Part shown: in pieces, positions 38,065 through 46,659 of the stretch
How positions within the stretch are numbered: the stretch's first letter is position 1
Layout: the number at the start of each line of letters is the position of its first letter
NCBI RefSeq assembly: GCF_015062935.1
Contig: NZ_SUTM01000022.1
Location: 1 to 46,659, forward strand
DNA from: Methanobrevibacter sp.
GTDB lineage: Archaea > Methanobacteriota > Methanobacteria > Methanobacteriales > Methanobacteriaceae
DNA: 46,659 bases
Reading direction: 5' to 3'
Made by a program: the position numbers and the translations under genes
The notes under the pieces: generated by a model
The model's input: only the letters and a program-made list of their open reading frames with translations
Told to the model about the DNA's origin: nothing
Database searches by the model: none

Positions 38065-39111
38065 TCAATATGTTTCATTTACTTCTTTTAGTCTTTTTAG
38101 AGACCTTTCGAAAATCTCGTCATTATTAATATTGTATCTGAGCTTGTTTACCCTGCTGTGTGCATGGACTGTTTTTGGAACTGACATGTAATCCCCGTAG
38201 ATTGTCTTTAAGTGATGGTCATAGTCATGAGGCACAGGAAATACCTTATCTCCGAATTTTGTCTCTTTCAATGGGAACAGCTTGTCGTCTTCTAAAAGCA
38301 TCAGGTCATATAGGTTATATGGGCCGCATGCCCCTTCAACTCCAGGCAATATATATTTCTGTCTGTCGAAGGTCAAATCAAGCTTGTCATAGACTATTTT
38401 AAGCCTTTTATCTTCATCCATTTCATCATAGATGTTTTGGAAGAGTTCCTTTTTGGTTAAAAAGTAATGGCGCTGATATTCCTCACTAGTTATATCAGGT
38501 TTTGTTTTTATGTAGTCATATGGGAAAACATCTATGCCTGCAAGGATAGGGTAATCTCCATTTGGAAGATAATCCCTTAAAAAAATCAAAAGAAAACTTC
38601 CGATTATTTCTCCTTTGAACTTGCGCTGCTTGTATTGGAGCTTGATGATGTCATCGATTTTGTGTTTTTTGACTTCTTCGTGGATAATCTTGTCAAACTT
38701 GAGGTAGTCTTCCCTCATCATTCCTATATCAGTATCATCATCCCATGGGATGAAGTAGTTATGGCGTATTCCTCCCAGAAGAGTTCCGTAGTCAAGCCAC
38801 CAGTTAAGGTCGTTTGCCTTGCAGATGTTGTTTACGAACTCAAGAAGTTCAGTGCAGAGAAGATGAATGTTTTTTAGAATTCCTATTGATTCATGCTTGT
38901 AGTCCAAAAAAAGCACGTTAAACAAATCGTTTGTGGAGTCCATGTACTTTTTTTGAAGTTCCATTTCATCACGCAGCTGCTGAATTTCTTTTTTTAAATC
39001 ATTGCTAACCTGGTTTTTATTGTTTTTGTTAGGTAAAATATATTTTTCATACTGTTCCTTGTAAAACCTGTAGCTGTTACTTTTATTTAAAAAATAATTT
39101 TTAATTCCCAT
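38065..39111 (-). CDS. LicD-family phosphotransferase
   Basis: The protein has 348 residues. A charged N-terminal helix (residues about 30-60) precedes the LicD domain: LNWWLDYGTLLGGIRHNYF, IPWDDDTDIGMMREDYLKF, and later IDVFPYDYIK. The DDDTDIG aspartates are the nucleotidyltransferase-fold metal ligands. LicD proteins move phosphocholine, or related phospho-alcohols, from a CDP ester to a sugar of a surface glycan. The second LicD gene at 42834 and the nucleotidyltransferase fusion at 41006 complete the set. It is the only gene of this set on the minus strand, downstream of a broken GT2 fragment. Confidence 0.88.
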   Translation of the reverse strand: MGIKNYFLNKSNSYRFYKEQYEKYILPNKNNKNQVSNDLKKEIQQLRDEMELQKKYMDSTNDLFNVLFLDYKHESIGILKNIHLLCTELLEFVNNICKANDLNWWLDYGTLLGGIRHNYFIPWDDDTDIGMMREDYLKFDKIIHEEVKKHKIDDIIKLQYKQRKFKGEIIGSFLLIFLRDYLPNGDYPILAGIDVFPYDYIKTKPDITSEEYQRHYFLTKKELFQNIYDEMDEDKRLKIVYDKLDLTFDRQKYILPGVEGACGPYNLYDLMLLEDDKLFPLKETKFGDKVFPVPHDYDHHLKTIYGDYMSVPKTVHAHSRVNKLRYNINNDEIFERSLKRLKEVNETY

Positions 39112-39423: not shown

Positions 39424-40209
39424 ATGATTATTCAATGCAATAAAGATAATATAAGCCAAGTTTTCGAATATATCGGTGATGATTATGAGAAATGCTTATA
39501 CCTGTATATAGATCTTGTAAAATATGGAATTGAAAATGAAAACTTTAACATTTGGATACAGTATAGTGACAATGAAATAGTCTGTCTGGTTTCCCAATAT
39601 TATACAGGAATGCAGATATACAGTAAAGATTATGATTTGGATGCTTTGGAACTTATGGATTTTTTAACTGAAAAAGACCCTGATGTAATTTCCGGAATGG
39701 AAAAAAGCATGCTGAAGATAAAAGATGCGTTCAGCGAATATCATGAAACCATAGGTTTCGTTGGAAGATTGAAAAACTTAACTTATCCTCCAAATCCAAA
39801 TGCCTATTCCGCAGAAGATGATGAAATCGAAGAAATAGCACGATTGGTCAGTCAGGATGAAAACATAGGAAAACATTACGGATTTGAATCAATATATAAA
39901 CAGTTTTGCGATAGAAGAGAGGACGGTTTCGGACGCAATTTTCTTGACAGGGATGAAAACGGAGAAATAATATGTCATGTCGCCACATCTGCCGAACTTC
40001 CGGAATTGGCAGTAATCGGAAGCGTAATCACTTCACCCAAATATCGCTCAAAAGGTTATTCCAAGAAAAATTTATCTGCATTATGCAAACAATTGCTTTT
40101 AGAAGGTAAAAATGTTTTTTCATATTTTAATTACCCTCCATCAGTTAAAATGCATTTGGGTGTTGGATTTGAAAAAATAGGCCATTGGGTTAAATTTAAA
40201 AGACCGTAA
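39424..40209 (+). CDS. GNAT-family N-acetyltransferase
   Basis: The protein has 261 residues. The C-terminal GNAT domain (residues 130-260) shows AEDDEIEEIARLVSQDE, then VIGSVITSPKYRSKGYSKKN, the acetyl-CoA-binding R/Q-x-x-G-x-G/S signature, and NYPPSVKMHLGVGFEKIGHW. The N-terminal 130 residues are a separate, less conserved domain. It acts in the cytosol on an amine, perhaps an amino-sugar or the amino compound handled by its neighbours. It is 50 bases upstream of the racemase-family gene, probably in one transcript. Confidence 0.82.
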   Translation: MIIQCNKDNISQVFEYIGDDYEKCLYLYIDLVKYGIENENFNIWIQYSDNEIVCLVSQYYTGMQIYSKDYDLDALELMDFLTEKDPDVISGMEKSMLKIKDAFSEYHETIGFVGRLKNLTYPPNPNAYSAEDDEIEEIARLVSQDENIGKHYGFESIYKQFCDRREDGFGRNFLDRDENGEIICHVATSAELPELAVIGSVITSPKYRSKGYSKKNLSALCKQLLLEGKNVFSYFNYPPSVKMHLGVGFEKIGHWVKFKRP

Positions 40210-40259: not shown

Positions 40260-41000
40260 ATGAACTCCAATACTTGGGAAAACAGGAAAGAAAATGAAGT
40301 TATTGGAATTGTTGGCGGGTTTGGCTCTTATGCAACATTGAATTTTTTTAAACGGATTTTAGATTCTTATCCTGCTGAAAAAGAATGGGACAGACCAAGA
40401 ATATTAATAGACAATTACTGTACATTGCCCAGCAGAGTAAGAGGAATACTATATGGAGAAAATGTTGATAAAATAATAGATGGCCTCTCCCATTCCGTAA
40501 ACAGTTTAATCAATGCCGGTGCAACAAAGATTATCATTTCATGCAATACTGCACATTACTTTCTAGATGACGTATATCTCAAAGTCCCTAAATGCAAAGG
40601 AATAATCATAAACATTATAGAAGAGCTGGCTATTTATCTGAACAAACATGAAGTGTCTGAAATAAGTTTAATAGCTACAGAAGGAACCCTTGAATCAGAA
40701 TTATATCAGAAAACATTTGATGAATACAACATCAAAATCAATGCTCCCGACAGAAATGATTTTTCAAAAATGTCAGAACTAATAGAAGTGGTAAAGCAGA
40801 ATAAGCCTATAGATTCCCAGGTAAAATCCCAGTTCATTGATTTGCTTAAAAAACAAAAAAACAAATCAGTTATTTTGGGATGCACAGAGTTTCCGGTGAT
40901 CTATAATGAAGTTAAACAGGATTTGGAAAAACTGGACATTACCATATATGATCCTTTAGAGATTGCTATTTTAAAAATCAAAGATAAAAATCAATTGTGA
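40260..41000 (+). CDS. Aspartate/glutamate racemase-family protein
   Basis: The protein has 246 residues, with AGAGGATTATTC before the ATG. Both active-site cysteines of the family are present: ISCNTAHYF near residue 93 and LGCTEFPV near 200, with GIVGGFGSYATLNFFKRIL at the start. Members use two cysteines to remove and return the alpha proton of Asp, Glu or related acids. Its placement before a nucleotidyltransferase fusion and LicD suggests it supplies a D-amino acid or a related compound for surface decoration, which is inference. The stop overlaps the GTGAT ribosome site of the next gene. Confidence 0.85.
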   Translation: MNSNTWENRKENEVIGIVGGFGSYATLNFFKRILDSYPAEKEWDRPRILIDNYCTLPSRVRGILYGENVDKIIDGLSHSVNSLINAGATKIIISCNTAHYFLDDVYLKVPKCKGIIINIIEELAIYLNKHEVSEISLIATEGTLESELYQKTFDEYNIKINAPDRNDFSKMSELIEVVKQNKPIDSQVKSQFIDLLKKQKNKSVILGCTEFPVIYNEVKQDLEKLDITIYDPLEIAILKIKDKNQL

Positions 41001-41005
41001 TAATT

Positions 41006-42820
41006 ATGGATGCAGTAATATTGGCCGCCGGAATGGGCAGGCGTTTAAAAAGCTTAACTAAAGACAAAACTAAATGCATGTTAACAGTGAATGACGTTAC
41101 ATTAATTGAAAGAATGCTGAAACAATTGGACAGGCTCGGCCTGAATAAAATTATAATAATTGTAGGATATCAGTCCGATAAATTAATCGATTTCACATCT
41201 CATTTGAATATAAAAACCAAAATCGAATATGTCTTCAATGACATCTACGATAAGACAAATAACATCTATTCACTCTTTTTAGCAAAACATTATCTTGAAA
41301 ATTCAGACTGTCTGATATTGGAAGCGGACCTGATATTTGAAGACGGCATTCTGGAAGATTTAATCAATGATTCCAATCCAAATCTTGCATTGGTCGACAA
41401 GTTTGAATCATGGATGGACGGAACAGTCGTGACAATTGATGAAAATAACACTATCCTCAATTTCTATGCGAAAAATCAGTTTTCATTCAAAGACATAAAA
41501 GATTACTACAAGACAGTCAATATCTATAAATTTTCACAGGAATTTTCAAAACATTACTATGTTCCTTTCCTTGAAGCATATATCAAATCATTAGGTTACA
41601 ATGCATACTATGAACAAGTATTAAAAATCATCACTAATTTAAATGAAACCGACATGAAAATCAAAAAGCTCACAGGCGAAAAATGGTATGAAATAGATAA
41701 TGTACAGGATTTAGATATAGCAAGGTCAATATTTGCCAAGGAAGATGAAAAAGTTGATTTGATATCCAAAAGGCATGGAGGATACTGGAGATATTCTGCA
41801 TTAACAGATTATACAAACTTTTCCAATCCTTATTTTCCTCCAAAGACATTAATATCAGAAATGAAATTCAACTTTGAGGAATTGCTTAAAAGCCGTCCCT
41901 CACATATTGACGTGAATACATTGCTGGTTTGCAAATATTTCAATATAACTCCCGAAGAGATATGCATCGCAAACGGCATTCATGAAACAGTCAAATATCT
42001 AACAGAATATTATCTAAATGATGATTTTAAAATAGGGCTAATGGATGATGAATTTAACAGTTATGTGCCTGAAAAAAATCGTGTAATATATAATGGCTTT
42101 AAAGACGATTACAAATATGATTCAAATGACATCATAAGCTATTTCGGCAATGAAAATATAAGCATGCTCATATTAGCCAATCCCGATAATATTTCAGGAA
42201 ATTACATTTTCGAACGTGACATGAAAAAACTAATAAATTGGGCTGATGAAAACAATATTCTTCTGGTTATTGACGGGTCTTATATTGATTTTGTCGATGC
42301 CGAGCATAATTCCTCATTTTTGACTCAGGAAAATTTAGACAAATATGCCAACCTGATTATGATGGAAGACATATCCTGTTCCTACGGAATATCCGGTTTG
42401 AGCCTATGCGTTTTGGCATCTCAAAATGCAGACCTGATCAGGCATATTAAACAGAATCTGCCTAAAAACAATATTGATTCCTTCAGCGAATTCTATCTGC
42501 AGATATTTGAAAAGTATAACTTTGAATATGAAATGAGTCTTGTTAAGTTCAAGAATTCCAGAAAGCAATTCATTGAATCACTGAATAAACTTGAAAACAT
42601 TTCAGTTATCACTTCACAGTCATGCTTCATAATATGTGAAGTTTCAGGTAAATCAAATAGCAGGGAACTGTCAAAAATTCTTTTAAATGATTATAATATT
42701 CTTGTTAAAGACTTATCACTCAGTGAACCTTTCAAAGGTAAATCTTTAATGAAGATAATGATAGGAAATGATGATGAAAATAATGAACTCATTAATAAAT
42801 TAGCTAAAATCTTAAATTAA
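41006..42820 (+). CDS. Fusion of a LicC-like nucleotidyltransferase and a class I/II aminotransferase-fold domain lacking the PLP lysine
   Basis: The ATG at 41006 follows GTGATAATT. The protein has 604 residues. Residues 1-240 are a nucleotidyltransferase with AVILAAGMGRRLKSLTKDKT and LILEADLIF, as in CTP:phosphocholine cytidylyltransferase. Residues 260-600 have the aminotransferase fold (HisC/CobD-like): ANPDNISGN, VIDGSYIDF with pyridine-binding Asp423. The lysine segment reads DISCSYGISGLSL, so Cys458 stands where the Schiff-base Lys should be and Ser466 where the substrate-binding Arg should be. Linked nucleotidyltransferase and aminotransferase activities make CDP-aminoalcohols in some bacteria, but this copy of the second domain is probably inactive as a transaminase. 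Confidence 0.82.
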   Translation: MDAVILAAGMGRRLKSLTKDKTKCMLTVNDVTLIERMLKQLDRLGLNKIIIIVGYQSDKLIDFTSHLNIKTKIEYVFNDIYDKTNNIYSLFLAKHYLENSDCLILEADLIFEDGILEDLINDSNPNLALVDKFESWMDGTVVTIDENNTILNFYAKNQFSFKDIKDYYKTVNIYKFSQEFSKHYYVPFLEAYIKSLGYNAYYEQVLKIITNLNETDMKIKKLTGEKWYEIDNVQDLDIARSIFAKEDEKVDLISKRHGGYWRYSALTDYTNFSNPYFPPKTLISEMKFNFEELLKSRPSHIDVNTLLVCKYFNITPEEICIANGIHETVKYLTEYYLNDDFKIGLMDDEFNSYVPEKNRVIYNGFKDDYKYDSNDIISYFGNENISMLILANPDNISGNYIFERDMKKLINWADENNILLVIDGSYIDFVDAEHNSSFLTQENLDKYANLIMMEDISCSYGISGLSLCVLASQNADLIRHIKQNLPKNNIDSFSEFYLQIFEKYNFEYEMSLVKFKNSRKQFIESLNKLENISVITSQSCFIICEVSGKSNSRELSKILLNDYNILVKDLSLSEPFKGKSLMKIMIGNDDENNELINKLAKILN

Positions 42821-42833
42821 ATTAGGTGTACTT

Positions 42834-43841
42834 ATGTTCTTTAAAAGAGATTCACAAAAAGATGAATTGAAAAATGAAATAGAAGAGTTAAAAAAAGAAA
42901 TAGCAAGCTGTAAAAAAGAAATAAAAAGTTCCAAAAAGCAGATTTCCAGATTAAAATCAATGCGAAAAAATGACGAAAAAATTTTTGAAACTCATCATGA
43001 CTATTTCACAACATTATTTTTGGATTATGAATTAAAACCTAAAGGAATATTGAAAGATATGCAGGAATTATCTCAGGAAATTCTGGATTTTGAGGTAAAT
43101 GTATGCAATAAACACGACTTGACATACTGGATATCAGCAGGAACCCTTCTGGGTGCACATAGACATAAGGGTTTTATCCCCTGGGATGATGATATGGATA
43201 TGGGACTGATTAGAAAGGATTATATTAAATTATGTGAAGTTACACCTGATGAAATAAAAAATAACAATGCAGAGGATTTTTTCACATTCAGGGTTCATCC
43301 GATGGTAAGGGAAAACTTTGTATTCCCATTCACCAGATTGGAATGTGTAACTGAAAATAAAGACTTTTTAGCAGGAATTGATATTACTCCATATGAATAT
43401 TCCAAAACCAATGAATTTGAACTTAAGGAATTTAGAGATTTTAGAGATGAATTCTTTATAAGATTATCCGGTGGTGAAAACATAGAGACTATCGTGGATG
43501 ATATGTATGAAAGGTTTAATCTGGATTATGACAGCGGTGATTATATCATCAAAAATCCGACATATATCAGGCATGCGAGACATTATAATAAGGAAGTTGC
43601 CTGTTGGGATATTGATAGATTCCTACCCGTAGGAAAAATAGAATTCAACGGAAAAAAATATAATTGCCCTAGAGATCCGGGTTATTTTCTTGTAGCTGAT
43701 TATGATGATTTCATGCAAATCCCTAAAATTCTAATAGACCAGCATTATAGTGTAAATAAGTTAAGAAGAATTGAAAATATTGATGAGATTTATAAAGATG
43801 TGATTGAAAAAGTAAAAGAATGCAATGAAAACTTTGAATAA
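42834..43841 (+). CDS. LicD-family phosphotransferase (second gene)
   Basis: The protein has 335 residues, with TTAGGTGTACTT before the ATG. Residues 10-48 form a lysine/glutamate coiled coil. The LicD domain has LTYWISAGTLLGAHRHKGF, IPWDDDMDMGLIRKDYIKL and AGIDITPYEYSK. It is a paralogue of the 38065 protein, with the coiled-coil domain at the same place. It follows the nucleotidyltransferase fusion by 13 bases and is therefore the likely user of its product. Sugar acceptor unknown. Confidence 0.88.
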   Translation: MFFKRDSQKDELKNEIEELKKEIASCKKEIKSSKKQISRLKSMRKNDEKIFETHHDYFTTLFLDYELKPKGILKDMQELSQEILDFEVNVCNKHDLTYWISAGTLLGAHRHKGFIPWDDDMDMGLIRKDYIKLCEVTPDEIKNNNAEDFFTFRVHPMVRENFVFPFTRLECVTENKDFLAGIDITPYEYSKTNEFELKEFRDFRDEFFIRLSGGENIETIVDDMYERFNLDYDSGDYIIKNPTYIRHARHYNKEVACWDIDRFLPVGKIEFNGKKYNCPRDPGYFLVADYDDFMQIPKILIDQHYSVNKLRRIENIDEIYKDVIEKVKECNENFE

Positions 43842-45696: not shown

Positions 45697-46659
45697 TTAT
45701 AATATCATTAAGATACTAATGATTAAAACTGCAAACAAAGCAAGAAAGCTATTTTCTGAATTATTAGCCAATTCTATATTTTTATTTACATCCAATTTTC
45801 CATTAGTTTTACTGGTGTTTTGATCATCACCTGAACTTGGCAAATCGCTTAATGCATTTGCGTAATCAAAATCATCACTTAAAGGATTGTAGTTTTGATA
45901 TTGATTTCCTGATGCATCTTCCATCAATGGACAGTAATATGCTGCAGTAGCGATATATAAACCGTGTGAACAGGATGATATTTCCCCTTCAAAGTACTCT
46001 TCAGTTTCATTATCGTCTGTAAAGTTGTCTTCTGAGGAATATGTATCATTGGAATAATTGCCTGCACTGTTATATGCGGTTTCTTTAGCAGTAGTGTAAT
46101 AAATATGATATTTTATTGTATAATTTTTATAGAATGTATCATAGTAATCATGTAATACTTTCCAATCTTCTTTACTAATGCCGTATTGACCGCCTTCACC
46201 TGAGAAATCCTCACCTTCGTAGTCTTCCCAGTCTTCATCGTCCAGGTCATCTTCGTCGTCGTAGTCTTCCCAGTCTTCATCATCTAGGTCGTCCTCGTCG
46301 TCGTAGTCTTCCCAGTCTTCATCATCCAGGTCATCTTCGTCGTCGTAGTCTTCCCAGTCTTCATCATCCAGGTCATCTTCGTCGTCGTAGTCTTCCCAGT
46401 CTTCATCGTCCAGGTCATCTTCGTCGTCGTAGTCTTCCCAGTCTTCATCATCCAGGTCATCTTCGTCGTCGTAGTCTTCCCAGTCTTCATCGTCCAGGTC
46501 ATCTTCGTCGTCGTAGTCTTCCCAGTCTTCATCATCTAAGTCGTCCTCGTCGTCGTAGTCTTCCCAGTCTTCATCATCTAGGTCATCTTCGTCGTCGTAG
46601 TCTTCCCAGTCTTCATCATCTAAGTCGTCCTCGTCGTCGTAGTCTTCCCAGTCTTCATC
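45697..46659 (-). CDS. Large surface protein, C-terminal part: acidic 14-residue repeats and C-terminal membrane anchor
   Basis: The minus-strand frame is open from the window edge to the stop at 45697: 320 residues, N-terminus outside the window. The visible part starts with the acidic repeat unit YDDEDDLDDEDWED (at least ten copies, to about 46219), then a domain with QYGISKEDWKVLHDYYDTFY and TIKYHIYYTTAKETAYN, a Ser/Asn/Glu-rich part with CSHGLYIATAAYYCPLMEDA, and finally a C-terminal hydrophobic helix of about 17 residues (NSFLALFAVLIISILMIL). Such proteins are anchored to the membrane and extend through the cell wall, as methanogen adhesin-like proteins do. The acidic repeats could bind divalent cations. 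Confidence 0.8.
   Translation of the reverse strand, partial: DEDWEDYDDEDDLDDEDWEDYDDEDDLDDEDWEDYDDEDDLDDEDWEDYDDEDDLDDEDWEDYDDEDDLDDEDWEDYDDEDDLDDEDWEDYDDEDDLDDEDWEDYDDEDDLDDEDWEDYDDEDDLDDEDWEDYDDEDDLDDEDWEDYEGEDFSGEGGQYGISKEDWKVLHDYYDTFYKNYTIKYHIYYTTAKETAYNSAGNYSNDTYSSEDNFTDDNETEEYFEGEISSCSHGLYIATAAYYCPLMEDASGNQYQNYNPLSDDFDYANALSDLPSSGDDQNTSKTNGKLDVNKNIELANNSENSFLALFAVLIISILMIL
46219..46659 (-). repeat. Tandem 42-bp coding repeat (ten full copies and a half, continuing outside the window)
   Basis: Units begin at 46219, 46261, 46303, 46345, 46387, 46429, 46471, 46513, 46555, 46597 and 46639, all 42 bases apart, each encoding the same 14 residues. The differences between copies (for example GTC/ATC, CAG/TAG/TAA and TTC/CTC as read on the plus strand) are all synonymous. 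No insertions or spacers are seen. Confidence 0.95.

Follow-up and report, generated by a model that had tools for sequence, protein, structure and literature searches.

The window, i.e. the whole stretch of 46,659 nucleotides of Methanobrevibacter DNA that was analysed, contains a fusion gene in which a cytidylyltransferase domain is followed by a lineage-specific pseudo-aminotransferase domain; lysine-less proteins of fold type I as such are already known (ColD/E1/SpnQ, LCB1). Sequence comparison, a structural model and solved analogues together suggest that the C-terminal domain neither binds nor uses PLP, and that it is probably kept as a scaffold, most likely for dimerisation, on a working cytidylyltransferase.

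The fusion gene and its surroundings

The fusion protein is encoded on the plus strand by an open reading frame of 607 codons from a GTG at 40997, or 604 codons from an ATG at 41006, which extends to 42820. The ATG was chosen as start by alignment, as the relatives begin there, and GTG 40997 is the alternative start. All residue numbers (e.g. 458) are counted from the ATG. Pfam analysis revealed an NTP-transferase domain (PF00483/PF12804) followed by an Aminotran_1_2 domain (PF00155). The features of the region are listed below, with the basis of each assignment in brackets.

38065..39111, minus strand: second LicD-family gene, divergent (PF04991, 92 bits)
39424..40209, plus strand: GNAT-family acetyltransferase; the type also occurs in other LicD clusters (PF00583, homologues)
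40260..41000, plus strand: Asp/Glu-type amino-acid racemase; 5 bases separate its end from the fusion ATG (PF01177 and TIGR00035 above cut-offs)
41006..42820, plus strand: fusion gene of cytidylyltransferase and CobD/HisC-like pseudo-aminotransferase (ORF, Pfam, alignment)
41006..41737, plus strand: N-terminal LicC/PntC-like NTP transferase domain, with its conserved residues intact (Pfam, conservation count)
41774..42817, plus strand: C-terminal fold-type-I PLP domain, catalytically degenerate (Pfam, model, conservation count)
41894..41896, plus strand: Arg297 instead of the tyrosine that, as in fold type I generally, is expected to contact the PLP phosphate of the partner subunit (alignment)
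42188..42190, plus strand: Asn395, cofactor asparagine, retained (alignment)
42272..42274, plus strand: Asp423, pyridine-nitrogen aspartate, retained; the neighbouring Glu424 is Gly (alignment)
42368..42370, plus strand: phosphate-cup serine of S-x-S-K replaced by Asp455 (alignment)
42377..42379, plus strand: Schiff-base lysine replaced by Cys458 (TGT) (alignment)
42401..42403, plus strand: PLP-phosphate arginine replaced by Ser466 (alignment)
42464..42469, plus strand: conserved Ile-Trp of the IWNIN segment replaced by Lys487-Asn488 (alignment)
42752..42754, plus strand: substrate-carboxylate arginine replaced by Lys583 (alignment)
42834..43841, plus strand: LicD-family phosphotransferase, 13 bases downstream of the fusion (PF04991, 96 bits)

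An open reading frame on the minus strand at 45697–46659, which is open at the window end, encodes an acidic protein in which DEDWEDYDDEDDLD is repeated in tandem about ten times and whose C-terminus is hydrophobic.

Loss of the Schiff-base lysine and of the phosphate arginine

The motif DISCSYGISGLSL comprises residues 455–467 (458–470 if counted from the GTG; nucleotides 42368–42406). It could be aligned without gaps to structure 6oux (vkslskdfgiagvrlg; S-L-S-K-D-F-G-I-A-G-V-R-L-G) and to five congeners, which read KSISKSFGVPGLRLG. The Cys458 codon TGT differs from the AAA/AAG of the congeners by three base changes, and the Ser466 codon is AGC instead of AGA/AGG. A sequencing error was rejected as an explanation for Cys458, because three base changes would be needed and 26 further conserved sites are altered as well.

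To this sequence 137 full-length relatives were compared, which came from a GTDB genome scan, supplemented by searches in Lachnospiraceae and one other order. The Schiff-base column contained Lys in 134 relatives and Gln, Glu and Asp in one each, and Cys in none. The phosphate-arginine column was Arg in 137/137, Ser455 was invariant across the 137 relatives (Asp in the window copy), and the carboxylate-arginine column (R583) was Arg in 135/137 (Lys in the window copy). The nearly complete conservation of the first two columns shows that Cys and Ser in the window copy are not chance variation. Six congeners carry the gene, five of them in full length (53–60% identical) and one as a partial copy, and all six have kept both Lys and Arg. 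The Cys form is thus real and rare, and in this sample it is unique to this genome. Searches for relatives in phages and plasmids yielded distant fusions only.

An earlier note on this DNA, which numbered from the same ATG and spanned 42272–42404 (Asp423 to the Ser codon), had read a Cys at the position of the Schiff-base lysine in a gap-free alignment, and had proposed to check homologous fusions for Lys or Cys; both the alignment to 6oux and the five congeners and the Lys in 134/137 relatives bear this reading out. It had also described the Ser as a replacement of the carboxylate arginine. Ser does replace an arginine, but the Arg of G-x-R (R466) is, as we assume from fold type I in general, the PLP-phosphate arginine of the AAT Arg266 type, and the carboxylate arginine would be R583, which is now Lys. 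The statement that NPDNISGN and Asp423 remain holds for Asn395 and Asp423; Ile has replaced the near-invariant Pro396, and Gly has replaced Glu424. An alternative Schiff-base lysine had been named as a possible objection. In the sequence alignment Cys sits exactly in the Lys column, and K487 is the only Lys gained at conserved pocket positions besides R583K, but coordinates could still show another lysine.

Loss of conserved residues is confined largely to the C-terminal domain

Conserved positions were defined as those kept in at least 95% of the relatives. By this definition the window copy has changed 27/78 positions of the C-domain and 2/70 of the N-domain. When it was compared with congeners plus Fusobacterium, 42/115 C-domain and 3/91 N-domain positions were changed, and each of the other congeners had lost at most 7/80 C-domain positions. 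The altered residues include Y297R, P348D, E352S, P396I, E424G, F426Y, S455D, K458C, R466S, G468C, I487K, W488N, N491D, N540C and R583K, and the 27 changes are mostly at cofactor and substrate residues. We take Ser455, Arg466 and the partner-subunit Tyr297 to form the phosphate cup, and R583 to be the arginine that holds the substrate carboxylate, as is usual in fold type I. With an Asp in the cup and both the phosphate arginine and the partner-subunit tyrosine gone, PLP binding has probably been lost. The claim that ordinary transamination is impossible would therefore be even stronger than originally made, as most cofactor and substrate residues are missing, and the proposal of a PLP-binding regulatory part is disfavoured by the same three replacements (Ser455 to Asp, Arg466 to Ser, Tyr297 to Arg).

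In phylogenetic trees of both the C-domain and the N-domain the window copy was placed beside the congener L008, and a swap of the C-domain with another aminotransferase was rejected on this basis. The end branch of the window copy was 1.92 in the C-domain tree versus 0.36 in the N-domain tree, while the respective values for L008 were 0.087 and 0.10. The ratio of C- to N-domain branch lengths was tried as a detector of inactivity and discarded: it was higher in the Lys-less set (p 2e-4), but the Lys-bearing L185 and L150 outranked that set.

The N-domain scored 41.7 bits with PF12804 (cut-off 27), and the residues L6, G9, G11, R13, K23, E106, D108, E229 and D231 are invariant, including in the window copy. 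To judge from these residues, the domain should remain able to use CTP to activate a small phospho-compound.

The predicted fold and the open reading frame are retained

The predicted structure of the fusion had a mean pLDDT of 90, a pTM of 0.86 and no stretch below 50, with an alignment of intact relatives as input, which favours a good fold. The C-domain of the model reached target-normalised TM-scores of 0.78–0.84 to SMUL_1544 (6oux) and 0.82–0.83 to CobD, and the best full-length structural match was PntC-AEPT.

Neither stops nor frameshifts were found in the approximately 350 codons of the C-domain of the window copy. In simulations of neutral decay, in which all divergence was taken as neutral and L008 as the ancestor, an average of 4.3 stops had arisen once identity to the ancestor had fallen to 80%, and of 9.1 at 60%; at most 1% of the runs were free of stops. 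The differences between the window copy and L008 at codon positions 1, 2 and 3 were 0.41, 0.22 and 0.58 in the C-domain and 0.19, 0.10 and 0.53 in the N-domain. The C-domain protein thus changes faster, but the coding pattern is still present.

Ancestral chemistry and gene neighbourhood

The best model for the intact relatives was CobD (TIGR01140, 168–173 bits), ahead of HisC (TIGR01141, 148–153 bits). The window copy scored 58.9 and 99.3 bits, respectively; neither it nor the intact relatives reached the CobD cut-off of 290.55, and it also stayed below the HisC cut-off of 276.55. SMUL_1544 (6oux) is the solved structure nearest to the intact relatives, and it and the CobD threonine-phosphate decarboxylases (1lc5, 3fkd) are closest to the window C-domain in both sequence and fold. 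According to a published proposal, SMUL_1544 provides the ethanolamine phosphate of norpseudo-B12 (PMC4585668); this product would fit a cytidylyltransferase and LicD. These proteins differ from the fusion in being stand-alone enzymes of the cobamide pathway, with Lys in 6oux and 1lc5 and His in 3fkd. The latter (Porphyromonas gingivalis, named L-threonine-O-3-phosphate decarboxylase) reads SFSHAYGIPGLRIG with His in the Lys column and has DQSY where DESF is expected, and is thus a CobD-like protein without the lysine.

The N-domain shares fold, catalytic motifs and a LicD neighbour with the CTP:phosphocholine cytidylyltransferase LicC (1jyk), but LicC is stand-alone and choline-specific. Elsewhere, the genome of the window encodes LicC fused to choline kinase, together with LicD; at L200:3942-7307 (contig C10) an NTP-transferase/choline-ethanolamine kinase fusion is followed by an IspD-like gene and LicD, which is a separate phosphocholine-type pathway in an archaeon. 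A further cassette at L201:3194-7139 (contig C15) comprises a methyltransferase, a PhnW-like class V aminotransferase, a fusion of a TagD-like cytidylyltransferase with a GFO/IDH-type oxidoreductase, and LicD; it sits in a genome without PEP mutase. PEP mutase (PF13714) had no match in this genome, which is 99.6% complete. A phosphonate pathway for the fusion is thus unsupported, and a phosphate ester rather than a phosphonate is indicated.

LicD was a near same-strand neighbour at 25/89 loci of relatives. An octopine-type dehydrogenase was found near the fusion at 23 of the 89 loci and an ornithine-cyclodeaminase-family protein at 12, suggesting imine reduction as a further step acting on the phospho-amine. 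Methyltransferases are located immediately upstream of the fusion in two congeners. The racemase and the fusion did not recur as a shared cluster in the neighbourhoods of relatives that were examined.

The GNAT type at 39424–40209 and at L273-L280 recurs in LicD surface-modification clusters of Methanobacteriaceae, which often hold a PhnW-like class V aminotransferase, a TagD-like cytidylyltransferase and LicD. It was present near 3/5 of the most degenerate fusion loci versus 1/124 of the others (Fisher p 1e-4, post hoc test). It was nevertheless rejected as a marker of inactivity, since it also occurs in many fusion-free LicD clusters and beside L280, a partial copy that is intact; it marks LicD clusters rather than inactivity.

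Independent losses in other lineages

Including the window copy, the Schiff-base lysine has been lost in four lineages (C, Q, E, D) of 138 full-length sequences, always with an intact cytidylyltransferase, and the three relatives with Q, E and D are separate lineages. L076 (Blautia) has Gln in the Lys column and has lost 9 conserved C-domain positions. L106 (Lachnospiraceae) has Glu and only 4 C-domain losses; a 77%-identical relative has Lys, so that the loss is either recent or an assembly error. L167 (K458D) has lost 15/78 C-domain positions, including N395K and Y297Q, and 12 of these 15 are also lost in the window copy (expected 5.2, p 9e-5). L186 has kept Lys and lost N395 and R583, and the overlap of its lost positions with those of the window copy was not significant. 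In L167, L186, L076 and L106 the N-domain was kept (0–4 losses). These sequences come from MAGs or genomes that each represent one species, so that changes of a single base need confirmation. It is tempting to speculate, at somewhat less than even chances, that these fusions repeatedly shed PLP chemistry and that the C-domain has a second, non-catalytic job that is under selection.

A scaffold and its alternatives

The ancestral C-domain would most likely have been a CobD-like O-phospho-amino-acid decarboxylase that made a phospho-amine for the N-domain, for example ethanolamine phosphate from phosphoserine. The route would have led from the phospho-amino acid via the phospho-amine and the CDP-phospho-amine to transfer by LicD, which fits the CobD match, the SMUL_1544 product, LicD and the other neighbours. 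In the present lineage the C-domain, devoid of the lysine, the phosphate-binding residues and the substrate arginine, would no longer bind or use PLP and would persist as a folded module, probably as a dimerisation scaffold of the cytidylyltransferase. The N-domain would still use CTP to convert a small phospho-compound into its CDP-linked form, from which the adjacent LicD would transfer the phospho-group to a surface polymer. The substrate of the N-domain would now be supplied from another source; the LicC-choline kinase locus and the PhnW-like cassette elsewhere in the genome could provide a phospho-amine and so make the chemistry of the C-domain dispensable. In two solved fusions, PntC-AEPT and the MetRS of M. 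penetrans, dimers form through the aminotransferase domain, and the NTase domains lie at the periphery (PMC6697681, PMC13215547). A scaffold is therefore the simplest role for an inactive folded domain, with the limit that the aminotransferase domains of these analogues belong to class V and that of the window fusion to class I/II. PntC-AEPT (Tde1415 of Treponema denticola, PDB 6pd1/6pd2) likewise joins an N-terminal LicC-like cytidylyltransferase to a C-terminal PLP aminotransferase fold, but its domain is active and serves a phosphonate pathway, whereas that of the window is CobD-like (PF00155) and has lost its site. The exact Cys variant occurs in one genome only, so that selection within the lineage is not directly measurable.

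A regulatory module, in which the remodelled pocket binds a non-PLP metabolite and tunes the cytidylyltransferase, would explain why the losses cluster in the old active site of an otherwise retained fold, and some changes do introduce new polar or charged residues (S455D, I487K, P348D, Y297R), as if the site had been changed rather than blanked. However, the new residues are conserved in no related set and five congeners keep the old site, and we regard such a module as unlikely. Less likely again is early gene decay, i.e. a dispensable C-domain in which a stop has merely yet to arise. The restriction to a single genome, the 27 lost residues, the rapid turnover of surface-glycan genes and the partial losses in several relatives would be in line with decay; the frame, which is open where 4–9 stops are expected, the concentration of substitutions at third codon positions and the normal constraint on the N-domain are not.

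That the C-domain is still a B6 enzyme but catalyses another reaction, in the manner of ColD, E1 and SpnQ, which are PMP enzymes without the lysine, appears very improbable. Fold-type-I enzymes with His at the Lys position are known (PMC8987622), 3fkd also has His there, and Asn395 and Asp423 are retained. Yet these sugar 3-dehydratases have kept PMP and use a catalytic His, while the window copy has Cys, and its phosphate site is dismantled (Arg466, Ser455 and Tyr297 gone), as is the carboxylate arginine. Hardly credible is a pairing with an intact cellular PLP protein, in which the domain would be a structural part of a shared active site, as with LCB1-LCB2 of serine palmitoyltransferase. 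Human LCB1 (SPTLC1) is a PLP-fold subunit that lacks the PLP lysine and is nevertheless needed, being kept for structure (PMC3794620), and the genome has 12 other Aminotran_1_2 matches. LCB1, however, forms a heterodimer with an active paralogue, whereas the window domain is fused, the genome has no second full-length copy of the fusion, and Tyr297, the residue of the second subunit, has been lost as well.

Implications

The gene cautions against naming such genes aminotransferase or histidinol-phosphate transaminase from a profile match alone, as the window copy is still above the Pfam cut-off. With the chemistry lost, the fold kept and five intact congeners at 53–60% identity, the gene is a natural experiment on the non-catalytic role of the aminotransferase domain in a cytidylyltransferase fusion. 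Since such losses have arisen independently in gut Firmicutes, a scaffold or regulatory role can be tested by comparing paired intact and inactive members. For the biology of this rumen-type methanogen, the fusion represents a two-domain type of enzyme for decorating cell-surface molecules.
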